This document shows, piece by piece, positions 19,898 through 31,024 of a stretch of 64,000 bases of DNA. The DNA is from Tistrella mobilis (GTDB lineage Bacteria > Pseudomonadota > Alphaproteobacteria > Tistrellales > Tistrellaceae), in the NCBI RefSeq assembly GCF_041468085.1, contig NZ_CP121017.1, forward strand, positions 4,623,501 to 4,687,500, given 5' to 3'. The position numbers and the translations under genes were made by a program. How positions within the stretch are numbered: the first letter of the stretch is position 1; the number at the start of each line of letters is the position of its first letter. A model generated the notes under the pieces. It had not been told where the DNA came from. It was given only the letters and a program-made list of their open reading frames with translations, and did no database searches.

Positions 19898-20091
19898 CTC
19901 TCCAGCCTTCTAGATAGCATCGCCCCCCAGGCGGCGAAAGTCCCCGCCTTGCGCAGTGGTGCAACGCCATCGGCGGGCGATATCACGCTGCGGTAACATC
20001 GCCGCCACGAAACCGTCAAAAGGCCACGGTAGAACCGCGACCAGTCGACGGTTCTGCACCCTCGTCTCAACCGTCGATCCGGTGACCCATC

Positions 20092-20874
20092 ATGAGCACA
20101 TCCGACGCCGTGTCCCGTCCTGCTTCACGCGCCAGCCTGCCCGCCGGCTTCGTCATCGGCCATCGCGGCGCAAGCGGTCATGCGCCCGAGAACACGCTGC
20201 CGGCGATCCGCCGCGCGGCGGAGCTGGGTGCGCCGATGGTGGAATTCGACGTGAAGCTCACCCGTTCCGGCGTGCCGGTGCTGCTCCATGACGACCGGGT
20301 GGAGCGAACCACCGACGGCCGCGGCCCGGCTGCGGGCTTCGAGCTGGCGGCGCTCAAGGCACTGGATGCCGGCGCCTGGTTCGCGCCCGGTTTCGCCGGC
20401 ACCCGCATTCCGACCCTGGCCGAGGCCGTGGCGGTGCTCACCGAAACTGGTCTCGATGCCAATGTCGAGATCAAGCCCTGCCCTCATCGTGAGGCCGAAA
20501 CCGCGGCGGTGGTGGCAGAGGAGCTGCGCCGGCTCTGGCCGGCAGGCAAGCGGCCGCCGCTGCTCTCTTCCTTCGAGATGGCCTCGCTCCGCACCGCGCT
20601 GAGCGTCGCCCCCGAACTGCCGCGGGCCCTGCTGTTCGAAGGCCTGCCCGCCCCCCGCACCCTGGAGGCGCTGGTGGGGGAGCTGCGCCCCGCCGCCCTG
20701 CATCTGTGGGAGCGGGTGATCGACAAAGGCCTTGTGGCCTGGGCGCGCATGCGCGGCCTCGACCTCAGGGCCTGGACGGTCAACGACCCCGCCCGCGCCG
20801 CATATCTGCACGCCCTTGGCGTCACCGCCGTGTTCACCGATTTCCCCGACCGGATGCTGTCCGGGGCAGGCTGA
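20092..20874 (+). CDS. ugpQ: Glycerophosphodiester phosphodiesterase
   Basis: A 260-residue GDPD enzyme that cleaves deacylated phospholipids to glycerol-3-phosphate and an alcohol. Catalytic motifs: FVIGHRGASGHAPENTLPAI (general His and substrate Arg/Glu), MVEFDVKLTRSGVPVLLHDD (metal Glu/Asp and second His) and DANVEIKP. No signal peptide, so it acts in the cytoplasm like UgpQ. It is the first gene of a co-directional set with ugpB, A, E and C, whereas in E. coli ugpQ is last. The arrangement supports uptake of glycerophosphodiesters followed by hydrolysis. Confidence 0.93.
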   Translation: MSTSDAVSRPASRASLPAGFVIGHRGASGHAPENTLPAIRRAAELGAPMVEFDVKLTRSGVPVLLHDDRVERTTDGRGPAAGFELAALKALDAGAWFAPGFAGTRIPTLAEAVAVLTETGLDANVEIKPCPHREAETAAVVAEELRRLWPAGKRPPLLSSFEMASLRTALSVAPELPRALLFEGLPAPRTLEALVGELRPAALHLWERVIDKGLVAWARMRGLDLRAWTVNDPARAAYLHALGVTAVFTDFPDRMLSGAG

Positions 20875-20971
20875 CCCCCCGCCCGCTGCCGCAGACGATC
20901 CGGTCGACCCGCACCTGTCCCCAAGACCGACCCCGGAAGACAGCACCTCCGGACCCTCAGGGAGCGTCGTC

Positions 20972-22300
20972 ATGAACAAGACCTGGATCGTTGCCGCGGC
21001 CGTGGCCGCCAGCTTCACCGTCGGCGGTTTCGCCGGCGCCGCCGATGCCGCCACCAAGGTGGAATGGTGGCATGCCATGGGCGGTGAGCTTGGCCAGAAG
21101 GTCGAGCAGATCGCCAAGGACTTCAACGCCGGCCAGTCGGATTACGAGATCGTCCCGGTCTACAAGGGCAATTATGCCGAAACCATGACCGGCGCGATCG
21201 CCGCCTTCCGCGCCGGCCAGCAGCCCGCGATCGTGCAGGTCTTCGAGGTCGGCACCGCCACCATGATGGCGGCCAAGGGTGCCGTGAAGCCGGTTTACGA
21301 GGTGATGGAAGAGGCCGGCGAGCCCTTCGATCCCAAGGCCTATCTCCAGGCGGTGACCGGCTATTACAGCACCACCGACGGCCGCATGCTGTCGATGCCG
21401 TTCAACAGCTCGACGACGGTCATGTATGTCAATCTCGACGCCGCGAAGAAGGTCGGCATCGACTACAAGACCGATCTCGCCACCTGGGAACAGGTCGGCG
21501 ACTACATCAAGAAGGCGCAGGCGGCGGGCTATACCTGCGGCCTGACCACCGGCTGGCCGTCCTGGGCCCAGCTTGAGAACTTCTCGGCCTGGCACAACCT
21601 GCCCTTCGCCACGAAGCAGAATGGTTTCGGCGGCTTCGACACCGAACTGGCCTTCAACGGCCCGGTGCAGGTGAAGCATCTGGAGACGCTGGGTGAATGG
21701 CAGAAGACCAAGGCCTTCGACTATGGCGGACGCCGCAGCGATGCACGCCCGAAGTTCATCTCGGGCGAATGCGTGCTCTATATCGACAGCTCCGCGTCAC
21801 TCGCCGGCATCCGTAATGGCGTCAAGGACTTCACCTTCGGCGTGACCATGTTGCCCTACTGGAAGAGCGCGGTCGAAAAGCCCCAGAACTCGATCATCGG
21901 CGGCGCCAGCCTCTGGGTGCTGAACGGCAAGCCGGCCGAAGAGTACAAGGGCGTCGCGAAGTTCTTCAGCTACCTGTCGTCGCCCGAGGTTCAGGCCGAC
22001 TGGCACCTGTTCACCGGCTATCTGCCGATCACCAATGCGGCCTATGAATATGCCAAGAAGCAGGGGGCCTACGAGAAGACCCCGGATGCCGAGGTCTCGA
22101 TCCTGCAGATGAACCTCAACCCGCCGACCGAGAACTCGAAGGGCCTGCGTCTCGGTAACTTCGTCCAGATCCGCGACGTGATCGAGGAAGAGATGGAGCA
22201 GGTCTTCGCCGGCAAGAAGACCGCCAAGGCCGCGCTCGACGACGCCAAGGCGCGTGGCGACGAGCTGCTGCGCCGGTTCGAGCGGACCGCCGGCAACTGA
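20972..22300 (+). CDS. ugpB: sn-Glycerol-3-phosphate ABC transporter, periplasmic binding protein
   Basis: A 442-residue extracytoplasmic binding protein. A Sec signal peptide (KTWIVAAAVAASFTVGGFAG, cleaved near ADA-AT) is followed by VEWWHAMGGELGQKVEQIAK, the UgpB-type N-terminus, and by MPFNSSTTVMYVN and GWPSWAQLENFSAWHNLPFA, which match the ligand-site regions of UgpB. ATG 20972 follows AGGGAG. It delivers glycerol-3-phosphate and glycerophosphodiesters to the UgpAE permease. A strong stem-loop after its stop probably sets higher expression of this gene than of the permeases. Confidence 0.93.
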   Translation: MNKTWIVAAAVAASFTVGGFAGAADAATKVEWWHAMGGELGQKVEQIAKDFNAGQSDYEIVPVYKGNYAETMTGAIAAFRAGQQPAIVQVFEVGTATMMAAKGAVKPVYEVMEEAGEPFDPKAYLQAVTGYYSTTDGRMLSMPFNSSTTVMYVNLDAAKKVGIDYKTDLATWEQVGDYIKKAQAAGYTCGLTTGWPSWAQLENFSAWHNLPFATKQNGFGGFDTELAFNGPVQVKHLETLGEWQKTKAFDYGGRRSDARPKFISGECVLYIDSSASLAGIRNGVKDFTFGVTMLPYWKSAVEKPQNSIIGGASLWVLNGKPAEEYKGVAKFFSYLSSPEVQADWHLFTGYLPITNAAYEYAKKQGAYEKTPDAEVSILQMNLNPPTENSKGLRLGNFVQIRDVIEEEMEQVFAGKKTAKAALDDAKARGDELLRRFERTAGN

Positions 22301-22321
22301 TCACCTGAAGATCCGTGCAGC

Positions 22322-22356
22322 CGGCCCGTGCGGGGGGTGCTCCCCCGCACGGGCCG
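22322..22356. terminator. Intercistronic stem-loop between ugpB and ugpA
   Basis: CGGCCCGTGCGGGGG (22322-22336) pairs perfectly with 22342-22356 around GTGCT, a 15-bp GC-rich stem with no T tract. Such structures after binding-protein genes usually protect the upstream message or give partial termination, so that ugpB product exceeds permease. Confidence 0.6.
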
Positions 22357-22396
22357 CGTCGCTTCGTATCCCATCCACCCGGAACCCGTCCGCCCC

Positions 22397-23284
22397 ATGG
22401 CCACCCGCTCGCTCTTTCGCGGCAGAGCCCTGCCGCTTGCCCTGGTCGCGCCCCAGATCGCCATCACCCTGATCTTCTTCGTCTGGCCTGCGGCCCAGGC
22501 GCTGAAACAGTCGATGCTGATCGAGGACGCCTTCGGCTTCGGCTCGGAATTCGTCTGGTTCGAGAATTTCGAAAGCGTGCTGACCGATCCCGGCTATCAC
22601 AACGCGATCGCGGTTACGGCGCTGTTCAGCATCGGCGTGATGCTGGTCTCGCTGAGCCTGGGTCTGCTGCTGGCGGCGCTGGTCGACGGGGTCACCTCAC
22701 GACGGGCCGGTGCCGTCTACAGGGCGATCTCGGTCGCCCCCTATGCCATTGCCCCGGCGGTTGCCGGCGCGCTCTGGTTCTTCATCTTCAACCCCACGGT
22801 CGGCATCGTCACCCACTGGCTGAGCCAGGTCGGCATCGACTGGAACCATGTCCGCAACGGCGATCAGGCCCTGCTGCTGGTGATCCTCGCCGCGGCCTGG
22901 AAGCAGATCGCCTATAATTTCGTGTTTTTCCTGGCCGGGTTGCAATCCATCCCCCGCTCGCTGATCGAGGCGGCGGCGATCGATGGCGCCGGACCCGGGC
23001 GGCGCTTCGTCAGCATCGTTCTGCCCCTGCTCTCGCCCACCGCCTTCTTCCTGATGGTGGTGAACGTGACCTATGCCTTCTTCGACACCTTCCCGGTGAT
23101 TCACGCGGTCACCCAGGGCGGTCCCGGCAATGCCACCGAAACCCTGGTCTACAAGGTGTTCCGCGACGGCTTCATCGGCCTCGATCTCGGCCGGTCGGCG
23201 GCACAGTCGGTGATCCTGATGGTGGTGGTCGCCGCCATGACCGTGGTCCAGTTCCGCTGGGTCGAACGCAAGGTCCATTACTGA
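22397..23284 (+). CDS. ugpA: sn-Glycerol-3-phosphate ABC transporter, permease subunit
   Basis: A 295-residue inner-membrane permease with six hydrophobic segments. The EAA loop that contacts the ATPase reads [20 protein letters not shown]. The N-terminal helix [20 protein letters not shown] and C-terminal [20 protein letters not shown] are typical of UgpA. I start at ATG 22397 (MATRSLFRG); an upstream in-frame ATG at 22328 lies inside the intercistronic hairpin. It pairs with UgpE, whose gene begins 15 bp downstream. Confidence 0.93.
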
Positions 23285-23299
23285 GCGAGGAATGCTCCC

Positions 23300-24154
23300 A
23301 TGGCCATGGTCGAAGGCGGCACCCGCTCGCGTCTCGTCCGTCATGCCCTGATCTGCGGCCTGCTCGCCGCGATCGTCTTTCCGGTCTACATCGCCTTCGT
23401 CACCTCGACCCACGAGGCCTCGACGATGCTGCAGGGCGTGATCCCGCTCCTGCCCGGCCCCGATCTGGTCCCGACCTATGCCCGCGTGCTCGCCACCGGC
23501 ATCCCGACCTTCGGCGACCTGCCGGTTGCGACCATGATGCTGAACTCGCTGGTCATGGCGCTCGGCATCGCCATCGGCAAGATCGTGATCTCCCTGCTGT
23601 CGGCCTATGCGATCGTCTTCTTCCGCTTCCCGCTCCGGATGCTGTGGTTCTGGATGATCTTCGCCACCCTGATGCTGCCGGTGGAAGTCAGGATCGTGCC
23701 GACCTTCCAGGTGGTGTCGGATCTGGGCCTGCTGAACAGTTTCGGCGGGCTGATCGTACCGCTGCTCGCCTCTGCCACCGCCACCTTCCTGTTCCGGCAG
23801 TTCTTCCTGACCATCCCCGACGAGCTGGTCGAGGCCGCACGCGTCGACGGCGCCGGACCGATCCGCTTCCTGGTCGACGTGATCCTGCCGCTCTCGCGCA
23901 CCAATATCGCAGCGCTGTTCGTGATCATGTTCGCCTATGGCTGGAATCAGTATCTCTGGCCGCTGATCGTGACCACCGACCCGCAGATGACCACGATGCT
24001 GATCGGCATCCAGCGCGCGCTGTCCGGCAGCGACGAGCTGACCCCCTGGAACCTGGTGATGGCGATGAGCCTGCTCGCCCTGCTGCCGCCGCTCGCGGTC
24101 GTGCTCGGCATGCAGCGCTGGTTCGTCAAGGGCCTGGTCGACGCAGAGAAGTAG
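23300..24154 (+). CDS. ugpE: sn-Glycerol-3-phosphate ABC transporter, permease subunit
   Basis: A 284-residue MalG-type permease. The EAA loop is [20 protein letters not shown], followed by [20 protein letters not shown] and [20 protein letters not shown], which matches UgpE. Six membrane segments are visible, beginning [20 protein letters not shown]. It forms the translocation channel with UgpA. The gene lies between ugpA and ugpC, with 71 bp before the ATPase start. Confidence 0.93.
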
Positions 24155-24225
24155 TCGTTGGCGGGTGTTTGACGACCCTCGTCCGTATGCGGAATCCCGT
24201 CTCAATCCGAAGGCAGACCTGTCCC

Positions 24226-25368
24226 ATGAGCACGCTGACCCTGGCCGATCTGCGCAAATCCTATGCCGACACCCCGGTCATCCATGGTGTCGATCTCGAT
24301 GTCGCCGATGGCGAATTCGTGGTGCTGGTCGGGCCGTCCGGCTGCGGCAAGTCCACTTTGCTGCGCATGGTGGCGGGTCTGGAGACGGTCACTGCCGGCC
24401 GGATCCTGATCGACGGCCGGGTGGTCAACGAGCTGGAGCCCCGGGATCGCGACATCGCGATGGTGTTCCAGAACTACGCGCTCTACCCCCATATGACCGT
24501 GTTTCAGAACATGGCCTACGGGCTCAAGATCCGCGGCATGGCCAAGGCCGACATCCGTCGGCGGGTGGACGAGGCCGCCGCCATGCTGGGCCTGGGTGCC
24601 CTGCTCGACCGCCGGCCGGCTGCCCTGTCGGGCGGTCAGCGTCAGCGGGTCGCCATGGGCCGCGCCATCGTGCGCGAGCCGAAGCTCTTCCTGTTCGACG
24701 AGCCGCTGTCCAATCTGGATGCCAAGCTCCGGGTGCAGATGCGGCTGGAGATCAAGCGCCTGCATCAGCGCCTGGGCGTCACCAGCCTCTATGTCACCCA
24801 TGATCAGGTGGAGGCGATGACCCTCGCCGACCGGCTGGTGGTGATGAATGGCGGGCGGGCGGAACAGATCGGCCGGCCGCTCGATCTTTATCTTCGGCCG
24901 GCCACCCGGTTCGTGGCCGGCTTCATCGGCTCCCCCGCCATGAACTTTATGCCGGCGGCGCTGGCCGCCGATGCAATTCTGGTTGAGGGCGACCGGCCGA
25001 TCCGCGTCGATCCGGCAGCGCTCGGCCTTGAAGGTCTGACCGGTATGGCCGGGACCGGCGCCGTGCTGGGGCTCAGGCCTGAAGACCTGCATCGCCCCGG
25101 CGCCAGTGCACTTGCCGGTGCACCGGTGCTTGAAATGGGGCTGGAGGTGATGGCGGTAGAGCCGCTGGGGGCGGACACCCTGATCCACGGCCGGCCGACC
25201 GCGCCCTGCGGCACCGCGCTCGCCGATGCGGCGGGCGAGGCCCGTGGCCTCGTCACCGCCCGTCTCGCCGGTGCGGTCGAGACGGCGCCGGGCGCGCATA
25301 TGGCCCTTCAGGCGCGGCTCGACCGGCTGCACGTCTTCGGCGGTGACGGCAGGCGCCTCGGCGCCTGA
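24226..25368 (+). CDS. ugpC: sn-Glycerol-3-phosphate ABC transporter, ATP-binding subunit
   Basis: A 380-residue MalK-type ATPase. Walker [11 protein letters not shown] (about residues 37-46), Q-loop [14 protein letters not shown], signature [14 protein letters not shown], Walker [17 protein letters not shown] and H-loop [11 protein letters not shown] are all present. A C-terminal TOBE/regulatory region of about 140 residues follows ([12 protein letters not shown]). ATG 24226 is chosen because upstream codons lie in a non-coding gap. It closes the ugp operon and converges on the mscS gene, separated by the 17-bp repeat array. Confidence 0.93.
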
Positions 25369-25373
25369 GCATC

Positions 25374-25468
25374 GGCGACCGGCAGGTTCAGGCGACCGGC
25401 AGGTTCAGGCGACTGGCAGGTTCAGGCGACCGGCAGGTTCAGGCGACTGGCAGGTTCAGGCGACCGGC
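25374..25468. repeat. 17-bp tandem repeat array at the mscS 3' end
   Basis: Five complete copies of GGCGACCGGCAGGTTCA start at 25374, 25391, 25408, 25425 and 25442, with a partial sixth at 25459-25468. Copies 3 and 5 carry ACT instead of ACC. On the minus strand each unit contains the last codons and stop of the mscS-like gene (gtc gcc tga), so the array looks like repeated slippage duplication of the gene end into the space before ugpC. Confidence 0.9.
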
Positions 25469-26352
25469 GGCTGGGCCTGTGCCGGGCCGTCTCCGGCCGG
25501 GGCAAGCCCCACGGTCACGCCTTTCGGCGCGATGAGGTGCAGGTCGCGCTGCGGGAACGGAATACTGCAACCGGCGGCCTCGACCGCAAGCTTGGCGCGC
25601 TTCATCATGTCCCAGCGCAGGTTCCAGTAGTCACCGATCGTGGCGTTGAACCGCATGGTGATGTCGACCGAGCTTTCACCCAGATTGGTGACCATCACCT
25701 GCGGAGCGGGATCCTTGAGCACCCGCTCATCCGCGGCCAGAACCGCCGACAGCGCCTCGATCGCGGTGTCGATGTCGTCGTCATAGGCGATACCGACCAC
25801 GATATCCATGCGCCGGACCGGGTTGCGGGCATAGTTGGTGATCGGCTGCCCCCAGACCTGGCTGTTGGGCAGGCTCATGAACACCCCGTCCGCCATCTTC
25901 AGTTCGGTGGTGAACAGATTGACGTTGATCACCGAGCCGGCGCGGCCGCCGGCGTCGATGAAATCGCCGATCCGGAACGGCCGGAGGAAGAGCAGCATGA
26001 TTCCGGCTGCAACATTCGACAGCGTGCCCTGCAGCGCCAGGCCGATGGCGAGGCCGGCGGCGCCGAGCACGGCGATGATGCTGGCCGTCTGTACCCCGAA
26101 CTGGCCGAGGACGATGATCACCGTCAGGACCAGGATGCCATAGCGCACCAGGCTGGCGATGAACGGCCGGAGCGTCGGGTCCATATGACTGATCCGGCCG
26201 AGGGATCGATCCACCGCCTTCTCCAGCCAGCCTGCGATCAGCCAGCCGCCGATCAGAAGGGCGATGGCGCCGAGGACGGCCATGCCATAGGTCACCGCCA
26301 GCGTGCTGAGTGCCGCAACCACGGCATCGATTTCGGTCGTTACCTGATCCAT
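25456..26352 (-). CDS. Mechanosensitive ion channel, MscS family
   Basis: A 298-residue small-conductance channel. Three N-terminal hydrophobic helices (TYGMAVLGAIALLIGGWLIA, then YGILVLTVIIVLGQFGVQTA, then the pore helix with GAAGLAIGLALQGTLSNVAA and IMLLFLRPFRIGDFI) precede the soluble beta and alpha/beta domains. The pore-helix Gly/Ala packing pattern matches MscS. Length is close to E. coli MscS (286). It releases solutes on osmotic downshock. Its stop codon sits in copy 5 of the 17-bp repeat array; the array may therefore change the C-terminus in variants. Confidence 0.94.
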   Translation of the reverse strand: MDQVTTEIDAVVAALSTLAVTYGMAVLGAIALLIGGWLIAGWLEKAVDRSLGRISHMDPTLRPFIASLVRYGILVLTVIIVLGQFGVQTASIIAVLGAAGLAIGLALQGTLSNVAAGIMLLFLRPFRIGDFIDAGGRAGSVINVNLFTTELKMADGVFMSLPNSQVWGQPITNYARNPVRRMDIVVGIAYDDDIDTAIEALSAVLAADERVLKDPAPQVMVTNLGESSVDITMRFNATIGDYWNLRWDMMKRAKLAVEAAGCSIPFPQRDLHLIAPKGVTVGLAPAGDGPAQAQPPVA

Positions 26353-26425
26353 GCGGACGAGGTCTCCTTATCGGTCCATCCACGCCGGTGCCCGCCGGGT
26401 CGGGATGCCTCAGCGCGTTGACGCG

Positions 26426-26770
26426 TCAGCGGGTCAGGCGACCGATCAGCTCCTCGTTACGACGACGGACCATGCCTGGAATCAGGAACAGGTCCAGCAA
26501 CAGCCAGAGCGCAAGCAGCGCGTAACCGAGATATCCGACCAGCAAGAACACCAGCGCAGCAGATATGCCGTTCAATGCCAGCATGATCAACCCCGAGACC
26601 CAGGATCCCAGATACATCCGGTGTACACCGAACCATCCCAGAAAGAACCAGAGAAGATAGGCGAGCAGCGCACTCTTCTTCTCGTTGTCGTAGCGCATCA
26701 TCATGACCGTCTGGTCGGTTCCGCTGGTGCGGCGTTCCTCCGGCCGGAGAAAATCTTCGTCTCTGCTCAT
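26426..26770 (-). CDS. TM2-domain membrane protein
   Basis: A 114-residue protein with a charged N-terminus (MSRDEDFLRPEERR) and a TM2 domain: KKSALLAYLLWFFLGWFGVH, RMYLGSWVSGLIML and a third hydrophobic stretch ALVFLLVGYLGYALLALWLL. The GxxGxHRxYLG motif between helices is diagnostic. Function of bacterial TM2 proteins is unknown. ATG 26770 is chosen; upstream codons to 26878 lack resemblance. It lies 73 bp from the mscS start on the same strand. Confidence 0.85.
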   Translation of the reverse strand: MSRDEDFLRPEERRTSGTDQTVMMMRYDNEKKSALLAYLLWFFLGWFGVHRMYLGSWVSGLIMLALNGISAALVFLLVGYLGYALLALWLLLDLFLIPGMVRRRNEELIGRLTR

Positions 26771-26877
26771 GGGCGGATCCGTCCTGAAGGCGGCCACGGG
26801 ATGCGGCCGGGGGGTTTCACATGGAACCATGCCCCCTTCCGCATCGCAACCTCGGCCCCGAACATACCAGCCGGGCA

Positions 26878-28002
26878 CTACCGGTCAGACTGTTGCATGC
26901 CCTCAAGCGCGGCGGTCAGTTCCTGCCCCAGCCGCTCCACCAGCCCGGCCACCGGCAGCGTTCGGGACAGGCCGGCCCCCGCCCCCGCCCACCAGGCCTG
27001 CGCCTCCGGCACACCCGCCGCATCGGCACGGGCGCGGATCGGTCTGGTCAGCCCGTGCTGGGCCGGGAAGGCCGCCAGGGCCGCCGGTTCCACCGGCATG
27101 GCCTCGCCCGCCGCCAGAAGCTTGCGGGCCTGACGGGCGGTAAAGGCGCGTGTGAGCACCGTGCGCCCCTCACCCGCCGCCGCGGCCTCGGCCAGCAGAC
27201 GGCGGTGGCCGGGCTTCGTGCCGGCCTCCGCCGTCGACAGGAAGGCCGTGCCCAGCTGGGCGCCGGCAGCGCCCATGGCCAGGGCCCCGGCGACGCCGCG
27301 GCCGGTCATGATCCCGCCCGCGGCAATCAGCGCGACGCCCGCAGCGGCCGCCTCTTCCACCAGCGCCTCCAGCAGCGCCGGCCAGCCGAAGGCCGGGGCC
27401 GGCCCGTCGGCATCGAACATGCCGCTATGACCACCGGCATCTGCCCCCTGCACCACGATCATCTCCACCCCTGCCGCGATCAATGCGCGGCCTTCCAGGG
27501 GCGTGGTCGCCGTGCCGATCAGTGCGATGCCGCGCGTCCGCGCCGCCTCCACCAGCCCCGCAGGCGGCAGGCCCATGGTGAAGCTCAACGCCGCCGGCGC
27601 CTCGTCGAGCACGGCACGGATCTGGGCGTCGAGCGGCGGGGCGGCATCCGAAACATCCTGCGGCAGCTCCGCCCCGACCCGACCCGCCAGCGGTTCCAGC
27701 GCCCGGCGTGCCGCCGCAATCTCCTCGGCCCCGGCGATCCGCCCCTTATGGAAGAACAGGTTGACGGCAAACGGCCGGTCGGTCTTCGCGCGGATTGCAC
27801 GGATCTCCGCCGGGATGTCCTGGGCGCGGGTATAGGCAGCCCCCAGCGCGCCCAGAACCCCCGCCTCGCTGGCACCGGCCACCAGTTCCGCGGTGGTGGG
27901 CCCACCGGCCATGGGCGCCTGAATGACCGGAAGGCGGAGACCGAAGCGGCGGGTCAGATCGGTGGCGACGACGGGTCGGGCAGACATGGCGGGGGCAGAC
28001 AT
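26878..28002 (-). CDS. Nitronate monooxygenase (2-nitropropane dioxygenase family)
   Basis: A 374-residue FMN-dependent TIM-barrel enzyme that oxidises alkyl nitronates such as propionate 3-nitronate. Motifs: LRLPVIQAPMAGGPTTAELV at the N-terminus, FAVNLFFHK, VVQGADAGGHSGMF (flavin/catalytic region), LIAAGGIMTGRGVAGALAMG and AAGAQLGTAFLSTAEA. The frame continues upstream antisense to the LysR gene, so I start at ATG 28002 with GGAG 10 nt upstream; a second ATG at 27987 is possible. It is divergent from a LysR gene across a strong inverted repeat, which implies substrate-induced control. Confidence 0.92.
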   Translation of the reverse strand: MSAPAMSARPVVATDLTRRFGLRLPVIQAPMAGGPTTAELVAGASEAGVLGALGAAYTRAQDIPAEIRAIRAKTDRPFAVNLFFHKGRIAGAEEIAAARRALEPLAGRVGAELPQDVSDAAPPLDAQIRAVLDEAPAALSFTMGLPPAGLVEAARTRGIALIGTATTPLEGRALIAAGVEMIVVQGADAGGHSGMFDADGPAPAFGWPALLEALVEEAAAAGVALIAAGGIMTGRGVAGALAMGAAGAQLGTAFLSTAEAGTKPGHRRLLAEAAAAGEGRTVLTRAFTARQARKLLAAGEAMPVEPAALAAFPAQHGLTRPIRARADAAGVPEAQAWWAGAGAGLSRTLPVAGLVERLGQELTAALEGMQQSDR

Positions 28003-28085
28003 GGCAGGGATCTCCGGCAGGGGCTTCTGAACCGTCTTCAGCCTACCCCCGCCATATGCTTGCACACCAGCGACGATCGATGGAT

Positions 28086-28112
28086 CCTGTTTACAGTTTT
28101 TATGCAAACAGG
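28086..28112. promoter_or_regulatory. Inverted repeat, LysR operator candidate (nitronate monooxygenase promoter)
   Basis: CCTGTTTACA (28086-28095) and TGCAAACAGG (28103-28112) match in 9 of 10 positions as an inverted repeat with a 7-bp AT-rich centre. It lies in the 120-bp divergent region, directly before the LysR ribosome-binding site. Confidence 0.6.
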
Positions 28113-28122
28113 AGCGGCAGCC

Positions 28123-28980
28123 ATGGATCTCGCGGACCTGGCGGCGGTGAAAGCGGTGGCGGAGCTCGGCGGTGCGACCCCGGCGGCGGAGCGGCTGAAC
28201 TGCGTGCCCTCGGCGGTGACCGCCCGCCTGAAGCGGCTTGAAGCCGAACTGAACGTCGCCCTGTTCCGCCGCCGGTCCCGCGGGCTCGACCTCACCGAGG
28301 CCGGGCAGCGGCTGAAGGATTATGCCGACCGGCTGCTGATGCTGGCCGAAGAGGCGCGCCGCTCGGTCGCAGGTGGCGGTATGGCCGGTCTGCCGGTCCG
28401 GATCGGCGCGATGGAAACCATCGCCGCCACCCGCCTGCCCGGCATCCTGGGCCGCTTCCGGCAACAGGCCGGTGGCGAGGCCCGGCCGATCGGCCTCGCC
28501 ACCGGTACCACCGACGAGCTGGTCGCGGATCTTCTGCGCCATCGCCTGGACGTGGCGCTGATCGCAGGCCCCCTCGACCACCCTGCCCTCGCCAGCCGTC
28601 GCGTCTGGACCGAACACCTGGTCCAGGCGGCTCCCGTGGCCGGGGCAGAGACCGGCAGCGACGGGCTGCCCCTGCCGCTGATCGGCTTCCGGTCGGGCTG
28701 CGCCTATCGGGCCCGGGCCGAGAAACTGCTGCGAGAGGCCGGCCGTCTGCCGGTCCGGGTGCTGGAACTGGGCACGCTCGACGGCGTGATCGGCTGCGTG
28801 GCGGCGGGGCTCGGCTTCACCATCCTGCCGGCGCGGGTCTTCCAGGGCCATACCGCCCCCGGTATCGCTCTCACCCCCCTGCCCGCCGCCGCCGCAGAGG
28901 TCGAGGTGCTGGCGGCCTGGCCGCGCGGGCGCGGCGACGGTCTGGCCGAAGCCTTCGCCGCCGCGGCAGAGGCGGCATAG
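28123..28980 (+). CDS. LysR-family transcriptional regulator
   Basis: A 285-residue LTTR. DNA-binding domain: LADLAAVKAVAELGGATPAA, ERLNCVPSAVTARLKRLEAE and FRRRSRGLDLTEAGQRL. The inducer domain includes PVRIGAMETIAATRLPGILG and the CGxxAGLGFTILP-type segment GCVAAGLGFTILPARVF. ATG 28123 follows GGAGCGGCAGCC. It is divergent from the nitronate monooxygenase gene, which it probably controls. It ends 6 bp before the convergent esterase stop. Confidence 0.9.
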   Translation: MDLADLAAVKAVAELGGATPAAERLNCVPSAVTARLKRLEAELNVALFRRRSRGLDLTEAGQRLKDYADRLLMLAEEARRSVAGGGMAGLPVRIGAMETIAATRLPGILGRFRQQAGGEARPIGLATGTTDELVADLLRHRLDVALIAGPLDHPALASRRVWTEHLVQAAPVAGAETGSDGLPLPLIGFRSGCAYRARAEKLLREAGRLPVRVLELGTLDGVIGCVAAGLGFTILPARVFQGHTAPGIALTPLPAAAAEVEVLAAWPRGRGDGLAEAFAAAAEAA

Positions 28981-28986
28981 GCGCGC

Positions 28987-29691
28987 TCAATCCTGCGGCA
29001 GCCGCTCCATCAGGAAGCGGGCAGCCGCCTCGGCACCCTGCTGGTCGATGCCATGGGCAAGGCCGGGCCGGCGGATCAGCTCCGCCGGGATGCCGGCCGC
29101 CTCAAGCTTGGCGAGCGCATGGCCCGAGGCCTCCACCGGCACGACCGGGTCGTTGGTGCCGTGGATCAGCAGCACCTCGGGCCGGCGTCCGCCGTCGGTC
29201 ATCGGCGGCACCTGGCCCAGCATGGCCCCCGAGAAGCCGACGATCGCCGCCGGCGGCTGGTCGAGCGCCAGCCCCACCCCCAGCGACATCATCGTGCCCT
29301 GCGAAAAGCCGATCAGGGCCAGCCGGTCGGCGCCCAGCCCATGAACCTTCAGCTTCTCTGCCAGAAAGGCCCTGAGCGGGGCGGCAGCGCGGGCCACCCC
29401 CGCCGCCATCCTTGCATGCGCCGCCGCCATATTGGCGGGGTCCCGGCGCAGCATGTCGGGGTCGTAATCGTCCAGGCCGAACCACTGCCGGCCGAAGGGC
29501 GACATCTCGCAGGGATAGGGCGCATCCGGCGCATAGAAAGCGGTGTGCGGCAGCGCCTGGGCAAAGAACGGCGCCAGCCCGATCAGGTCCTGGCCGTCGG
29601 CGCCATAGCCGTGCAGGAAGACCACGATCCGGCGGACGATACCGTCCTTGGGCAGAAGATCGGGGCCGGTCAGGGTGGCGGGCGCGGTCAT
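28987..29691 (-). CDS. Alpha/beta hydrolase, phospholipase/carboxylesterase (LYPLA-like) family
   Basis: A 234-residue alpha/beta hydrolase. The oxyanion region is VVFLHGYGADGQDLIGLAPF, the nucleophile elbow is LIGFSQGTMMS (Ser), and the acid and base are in LLIHGTNDPVVP (Asp) and GLAHGID (His), a complete triad. Such enzymes hydrolyse esters or thioesters of fatty acids. ATG 29691 is used because the open frame above it is antisense to the preceding gene. It is the second of two adjacent paralogues (37 bp apart) that share the same motifs. Confidence 0.9.
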   Translation of the reverse strand: MTAPATLTGPDLLPKDGIVRRIVVFLHGYGADGQDLIGLAPFFAQALPHTAFYAPDAPYPCEMSPFGRQWFGLDDYDPDMLRRDPANMAAAHARMAAGVARAAAPLRAFLAEKLKVHGLGADRLALIGFSQGTMMSLGVGLALDQPPAAIVGFSGAMLGQVPPMTDGGRRPEVLLIHGTNDPVVPVEASGHALAKLEAAGIPAELIRRPGLAHGIDQQGAEAAARFLMERLPQD

Positions 29692-29728
29692 GGGTCTGGT
29701 CTCCGGAAAGGACAGGCGGTCGGATGGC

Positions 29729-30457
29729 TCACTGCGGCAGGTGATCGTCGAGGAAAGCGGTCGCCGCCGCAAGCCCGGCGAAATCGACCCGGTGATCCAG
29801 CCCCGGCCGGGCCAGAAGCCGGACAGGGAAGCCGGCCGTCCCAAGCCGCGCCTGCACCCACCGGGCCGAGGCGAAGGGCACCACGTCGTCGGCCTCGCCA
29901 TGAACCAGCATGACCGCCGGCCTGGGGCTCGTATCCGGCAGATCCGGCAGCACGCCAAGCAGCGTGCCCGAGAACCCGACCACCGCAGCCGGTGCCGGTT
30001 GCCCGGCAGCCAGGCGCGCCGTCATCATGGCCAGCGACATCATCTGCCCCTGCGAGAAGCCGGCGAAGGCGGTCGCCTCGGCCGGCACCTCCAGGCGGGC
30101 GACCAGGCCCCCGATCCGTTCCTCCAGCGCCGGGCAGGCGGCCGCGGCGTTCCGGCCCATCAGGACATGGCCCGCGGCATCCTCGGGCGGCATCGCCGCC
30201 GGATCGCCCGCCACCCAGCCGGGACGGAAGCCGGGGGTGGAGAACCATTGCCGGCCGCTCACCCCGTCCGGGCAGGTCTCGCCGCCATCGGGGCAGAAGA
30301 AGGCCGCCGTGGTCATGCGCCGGGCCATGCGCCGGGCAAGCGCCATCATCTCGCGGCCGTCGCCACCATAGCCATGGAGCAGAACCACCAGCCGCCGCAC
30401 GGGGCCGTCCTCTGGCAGAAGCAGTTCGTGGGCCGGGACAGGACTTGCGGATGACAT
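29729..30457 (-). CDS. Alpha/beta hydrolase, paralogue of the downstream esterase
   Basis: A 242-residue alpha/beta hydrolase of the same family as its downstream neighbour. Motifs align: VVLLHGYGGDGREMMALARR, AFAGFSQGQMMSLAM (nucleophile Ser), MLVHGEADDVVPF (Asp) and PGLDHRVDF (His). An extra segment with FFCPDGGETCPDG and a different central region suggests a different substrate pocket. The two genes are in tandem and probably arose by duplication. No cofactor or transport gene nearby hints at a substrate. Confidence 0.88.
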   Translation of the reverse strand: MSSASPVPAHELLLPEDGPVRRLVVLLHGYGGDGREMMALARRMARRMTTAAFFCPDGGETCPDGVSGRQWFSTPGFRPGWVAGDPAAMPPEDAAGHVLMGRNAAAACPALEERIGGLVARLEVPAEATAFAGFSQGQMMSLAMMTARLAAGQPAPAAVVGFSGTLLGVLPDLPDTSPRPAVMLVHGEADDVVPFASARWVQARLGTAGFPVRLLARPGLDHRVDFAGLAAATAFLDDHLPQ

Positions 30458-30595
30458 GCGGGCTCCCTGGCATCAGGATCGTGCGGCGGGGGTGTCGGCA
30501 CTGCCGCCGAGCCTGGATCAGATCCCTTTCGGGTGCAATCATCCGATCGGGGCAGGATGCCCGGGACATCACGCCGGCCAAGGACAACGCAACCG

Positions 30596-31024
30596 ATGAG
30601 CGACGAGACCGAGACCCGGCAGCGGGCCGATATCCAGGCCCTGCTGCGTGCCCATGCCGCCTTCTACGAGGCCTTCGCAACCCGCGATTTCGCCGCCATG
30701 CAGGGGATCTGGGCGGCGCGGCTGCCGATCGCCTGCATTCATCCCGGCTGGGGCGCGCTGGTGGGGCGCGAGGCGGTGATGACCAGCTGGCGGACGATCC
30801 TGGCCAATGCCTCGGCCCCGGCACTTGCGGTCGATCTGATCGACGTCACCATCTACGACAGCACCGCGCGCATCCTGGCCTATGAGCGGATCAACGACGC
30901 GGTCCTGATCGCAACCAACCTGCTGGCGCGCGAGGACGGGGCCTGGAAGATCGTGCACCACCAGTCGGGCCCGACCCCGCCGCCCACGGAATACGCGACT
31001 GTCCCGCCCCATCGCCTGAACTGA
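30596..31024 (+). CDS. SnoaL-like/NTF2-fold protein
   Basis: A 142-residue protein with the NTF2-like cone fold: helix QALLRAHAAFYEAFATRDFA, then AMQGIWA, CIHPGWGALVGREAVMTSWR and strands VDVTIYDSTARILAYERIND and GAWKIVHHQSGP. This matches the family often annotated as nuclear transport factor 2-like or ketosteroid-isomerase-like with a conserved HPGW motif. Enzyme activity is not predictable. ATG 30596 is chosen over 30533. It is followed by the marC-like gene in the same direction after 117 bp. Confidence 0.8.
   Translation: MSDETETRQRADIQALLRAHAAFYEAFATRDFAAMQGIWAARLPIACIHPGWGALVGREAVMTSWRTILANASAPALAVDLIDVTIYDSTARILAYERINDAVLIATNLLAREDGAWKIVHHQSGPTPPPTEYATVPPHRLN

Follow-up and report, generated by a model that had tools for sequence, protein, structure and literature searches.

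Mycobacterial interspersed repetitive units (MIRUs) are tandem units that lie near gene ends; they are longer than the repeat described here and are dispersed over many loci. In Yersinia pestis, 10 of 88 variable number tandem repeat (VNTR) loci overlap the stop codons of open reading frames (ORFs), and the authors of that study state that a change of copy number at such loci would leave the coding of the ORF as it is (PMC3689786). A report on archaeal Borg elements describes an intergenic array with a 20-nt unit that is absent from a close relative (PMC9879509). Here, we describe a 17-bp tandem array in a 64,000-nt stretch of Tistrella mobilis DNA (contig NZ_CP121017.1, positions 4,623,501 to 4,687,500; hereafter the window), in which the repeat unit contains the stop codon of an mscS-like mechanosensitive channel gene. 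We interpret the array as an ordinary minisatellite, that is, a VNTR-type locus, which is most likely selectively neutral (probability roughly 0.86). In the Tistrella tandem-repeat literature, judged by title, nothing on such an array was found. The features concerned are:

25374 to 25468, no strand: the 17-bp tandem array, 5.6 head-to-tail copies of GGCGACYGGCAGGTTCA, five full and then a 10-base partial sixth.
25374 to 25400, plus strand: the 10-bp direct repeat GGCGACCGGC, 17 bp apart, read directly from the sequence; its role as a minimal seed is putative.
25456 to 25458, minus strand: the stop codon of the mscS-like gene (TGA on that strand), formed by the three bases that close the fifth full unit.
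25456 to 26352, minus strand: the mscS-like mechanosensitive channel gene, 298 aa (PF00924, PF21082, PF21088, PF05552).
24226 to 25368, plus strand: a ugpC/malK-like ABC transporter ATPase gene, 380 aa (PF00005, PF17912), with its stop at 25366-25368.

Tandem Repeats Finder reported the array at 25374-25468 with period 17, 5.6 copies, 94% matches and a score of 176. This was the top score among 68 rows in the window; dinucleotide shuffling of the window, repeated 100 times, gave best scores per shuffle with a median of 54 and a maximum of 89, all below it. All five full copies fit GGCGACYGGCAGGTTCA exactly, and the sole variable base is unit position 7, which is C or T in the copy order C, C, T, C, T, C. 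The 10-mer GGCGACCGGC that is repeated at the start of the array also closes it, at 25459-25468. The whole array is GC-rich and measures only 95 bp. An earlier note on this DNA, made from the sequence alone, had described a unit that is not a multiple of three and copies distinguishable by C/T variation, and both descriptions agree with the period of 17 and the order at position 7. The array consists of several near-identical head-to-tail units of minisatellite size, as is characteristic of a VNTR-type locus.

On the minus strand, each unit reads once as CC(G/A)-GTC-GCC-TGA, encoding P-V-A-stop. The repeats therefore hold the last codons and the stop of the mscS-like gene, as the note had proposed, and just one of the repeated stop codons is the end of that gene. 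With the units phased in this way, the stop at the real gene end closes the fifth full copy, and the P-V-A codons lie within the partial sixth. The remaining copies follow on the downstream side of the gene, within the brief interval that separates it from the ugpC stop. The array occupies most of the gap between the two convergent genes, with the ugpC stop five bases ahead of it.

We modelled 1022 states of the array, covering 0-8 full units, all C/T combinations and either base in the partial copy, with changes by whole units. The predicted channel was identical (298 aa) in 1020 of these, namely all states with 1-8 full units, and the UgpC product was unaltered in 1022/1022. In the two exceptions, which have no full unit, the stop is lost and the ORF extends to 319 aa. 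As long as a full unit remains, whole-unit gain or loss leaves the modelled channel unaltered, since every unit supplies an identical set of final codons and stop and the C/T difference is silent in the proline codon. Whole-unit changes should thus not alter the C-terminus of the channel while at least one full unit remains, which runs counter to the suggestion in the note that repeat recombination could do so. With the stop inside the fifth unit and the ORF kept in the model, the locus is a predicted 3'-end VNTR over a stop codon, of the type described in the Y. pestis study (PMC3689786). Both cases involve a short-period array with a unit that holds the stop codon of a gene, and in Y. pestis the 3'-end unit of M59/ms05 is also 17 bases long. 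The organism and the sequence differ, however, and copy-number variation was measured in Y. pestis, whereas the comparison made here is between species only (PMC3689786).

The contig that holds the window is 4.92 Mb long; the genome totals 6.30 Mb in 4 contigs and has a listed completeness of 100%. For comparison within the genus we used this genome and two sister Tistrella genomes, G001 and G002, with one genome per species; the family search also covered three genomes. A scan of genome contigs returned 7 loci, one in T. mobilis and six others with 29-54% protein identity in the best segment. The pair of ugpC-like and mscS-like genes is present in both sisters (in G001, the mscS-like match is at 3638248-3639138), and the flanks of the junction share 91-92% DNA identity. 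In both, the end of the mscS-like gene is single-copy, reading TCAGCCGACCTGC against TCAGGCGACCGGC in the window, and Tandem Repeats Finder detected no tandem repeat with a score of at least 40 at either sister junction. Copy number thus differs between related genomes, at the level of species, as at VNTR-type loci. Since both sisters have a single-copy gene end and no array, the array would most simply be explained as an expansion in the lineage of the window. The single-copy orthologous ends also bear out the claim of the note that the gene end itself was multiplied; slippage, which it gave as the cause, is plausible, and we infer it rather than demonstrate it. The intergenic Borg example shares absence from a close relative, but Borg arrays are genome-wide, perfect and A-enriched, whereas the Tistrella array is GC-rich, carries C/T variants and is the sole array of its unit (PMC9879509).

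The following order of events may account for the array. In the lineage of the window, the terminal codons and the stop of the mscS-like gene would have come to adjoin a short copy downstream, giving as a putative seed a pair of 10-bp direct repeats, GGCGACCGGC, at a distance of 17 bp. The 17-bp unit could then have been multiplied between these repeats, through misaligned replication or some other process of tandem duplication. A C/T change would have arisen in one copy, and the alternating C, T, C, T would most simply stem from a subsequent duplication that took in two units (34 bp) at once. The array probably persists because its position between two convergent stop codons leaves both proteins unchanged.

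Several points weigh against a neutral minisatellite. Some of the 3'-end VNTRs in Y. pestis are low in diversity, and the authors of that study suggest possible constraint (PMC3689786). Copy number was compared between species, with one genome each, and any mutability of the present locus is putative. Two sisters are also too few to establish what the locus looked like immediately before it expanded in the lineage of the window. When at most 2 mismatches are allowed, the single unit has 45 matches in the own genome (5 of them in the array) against 7 for the reversed control. The 40 scattered matches outside the array are not adjacent to each other, the closest pair being ~250 bp apart.

The position of the array between convergent stop codons would also suit a bidirectional transcription terminator or a structured 3' RNA element serving both genes. 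A short GC-rich inverted repeat, CAGGCGCCTCGGCGCCTG, lies over the ugpC stop (25350-25367), is near-conserved in both sisters and might likewise be taken to favour a terminator, though it is outside the array; it could form a hairpin, without a T run. In contrast, the predicted fold of the 110-nt array region is less stable than those of shuffled copies on either strand (z = 1.52 and 1.40), the two 141-nt versions that include flanks hardly differ from their shuffles (z = -0.72 and -0.35), and the array is missing from both sisters. No intrinsic-terminator-like site, with a hairpin and a T run, was found in 24900-27000, and within 20000-31000 no match attained the gathering score of its Rfam family. 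One weak Rfam match, to sX12 at 25477-25547 (E 0.34), reached 20.3 bits where the gathering score is 106; its position is outside the array, and it was treated as chance. We consider a terminator or RNA element very unlikely.

It is very unlikely that the copy number is an assembly artefact. The number is that of the assembled sequence, but the array is only 95 bp long, the C/T base distinguishes its copies, and the assembly has few contigs and full listed completeness.

Two functional readings are highly improbable. The regular 17-bp spacing and near-identical units would be compatible with clustered binding sites for a protein, whether iteron-like or regulatory, as would the single-unit near matches in the genome, which outnumber those of the reversed control. 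Against such sites, the genome has no second cluster, the orthologous site in the sisters has none, the array lies downstream of both genes, and its units coincide with the coding end of one of them. The second reading is a frame-independent stop cassette that catches readthrough or frameshifting ribosomes at the end of the channel gene, its length possibly being kept by selection. Since the unit length is not a multiple of three, a run of three units does place minus-strand TGA codons in each of the three frames.

The unit plus the next six bases, searched with at most 3 mismatches, gave 5 matches in the own genome, all in the array, and 0 in both sisters and in the reversed control. The chance that the array belongs to a REP- or MIRU-like family of repeats, dispersed or mobile, is close to negligible: Tistrella genomes do carry a dispersed repeat family, but its unit is a different one of 71 bp, and across the three genomes the 17-bp unit with its six following bases is restricted to this locus rather than recurring at several loci as REP elements and MIRUs do. 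The two-unit pattern had no exact match in viral contigs. A plasmid search in near mode with a 1501-base query returned 2 records with short matches inside ugpC, in a mode that would miss a diverged short array.

The neutral minisatellite was also set against the background of other tandem repeats. Tandem Repeats Finder was run on 464 kb, comprising the window and 20 stretches of 20 kb from contig C4, and gave 11 rows with a score of at least 80, the present array among them. ORF context was checked, with mechanical ORF calls, for seven other arrays, two very long L083 repeats being left out. The note had raised the possibility of similar 3'-end arrays elsewhere; within this 464-kb sample, no clear overlap with a stop codon was seen among the seven. 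The closest case, at L071:12458-12534 (30-bp period, 2.5 copies), lies ~70 bp ahead of the stop of a coding-like ORF on the minus strand, within that ORF. A 71-bp-unit array has 4.8 copies in the window genome compared to 1.9 and 2.1 in the sisters, so the 17-bp locus is not exceptional in having a tandem copy number that differs between these species.

This 71-bp-unit array is located at L075:13246-13581 (G000:C4:1513246-1513581), and parts of its unit, often ~52 bases, recur elsewhere. Matches to the unit numbered 30, 36 and 35 in the window genome and the two sisters, where only 40 first-look candidates were scored per genome and the counts include the own locus and a few flanking-gene matches. 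By eye, the unit seems rich in GC inverted repeats, and Rfam gave no match for it. It may represent a so far undescribed family of dispersed repeats in Tistrella; the literature was not searched for it. In both sisters, matches to it are also located a short distance upstream of the ugpC-like gene (G001:C1:3636836-3637001 and G002:C1:197595-197766). In the window, only 71 bases separate a permease ORF (ending at 24154) from ugpC (starting at 24226), and none of the 71-bp-repeat matches listed falls in the window. A further array, of 16-bp units in 3.5 copies, is found at L076:19239-19294. In one sister, the matching region carries a 16-bp array with a different consensus (L090:1777-1818), and the region is shorter in both sisters (579 and 562 bases compared to 601).

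By analogy with the Y. pestis loci, we regard the array as a fresh instance of an already known kind, the VNTR that overlaps a stop codon. It differs from MIRUs in that its 17-bp unit, taken with the next six bases, is confined to one locus. The array reveals no new mechanism; it is a clear small example of the 3' end of a gene seeding a tandem array while the protein stays unchanged, and it might serve as a marker for typing this species.
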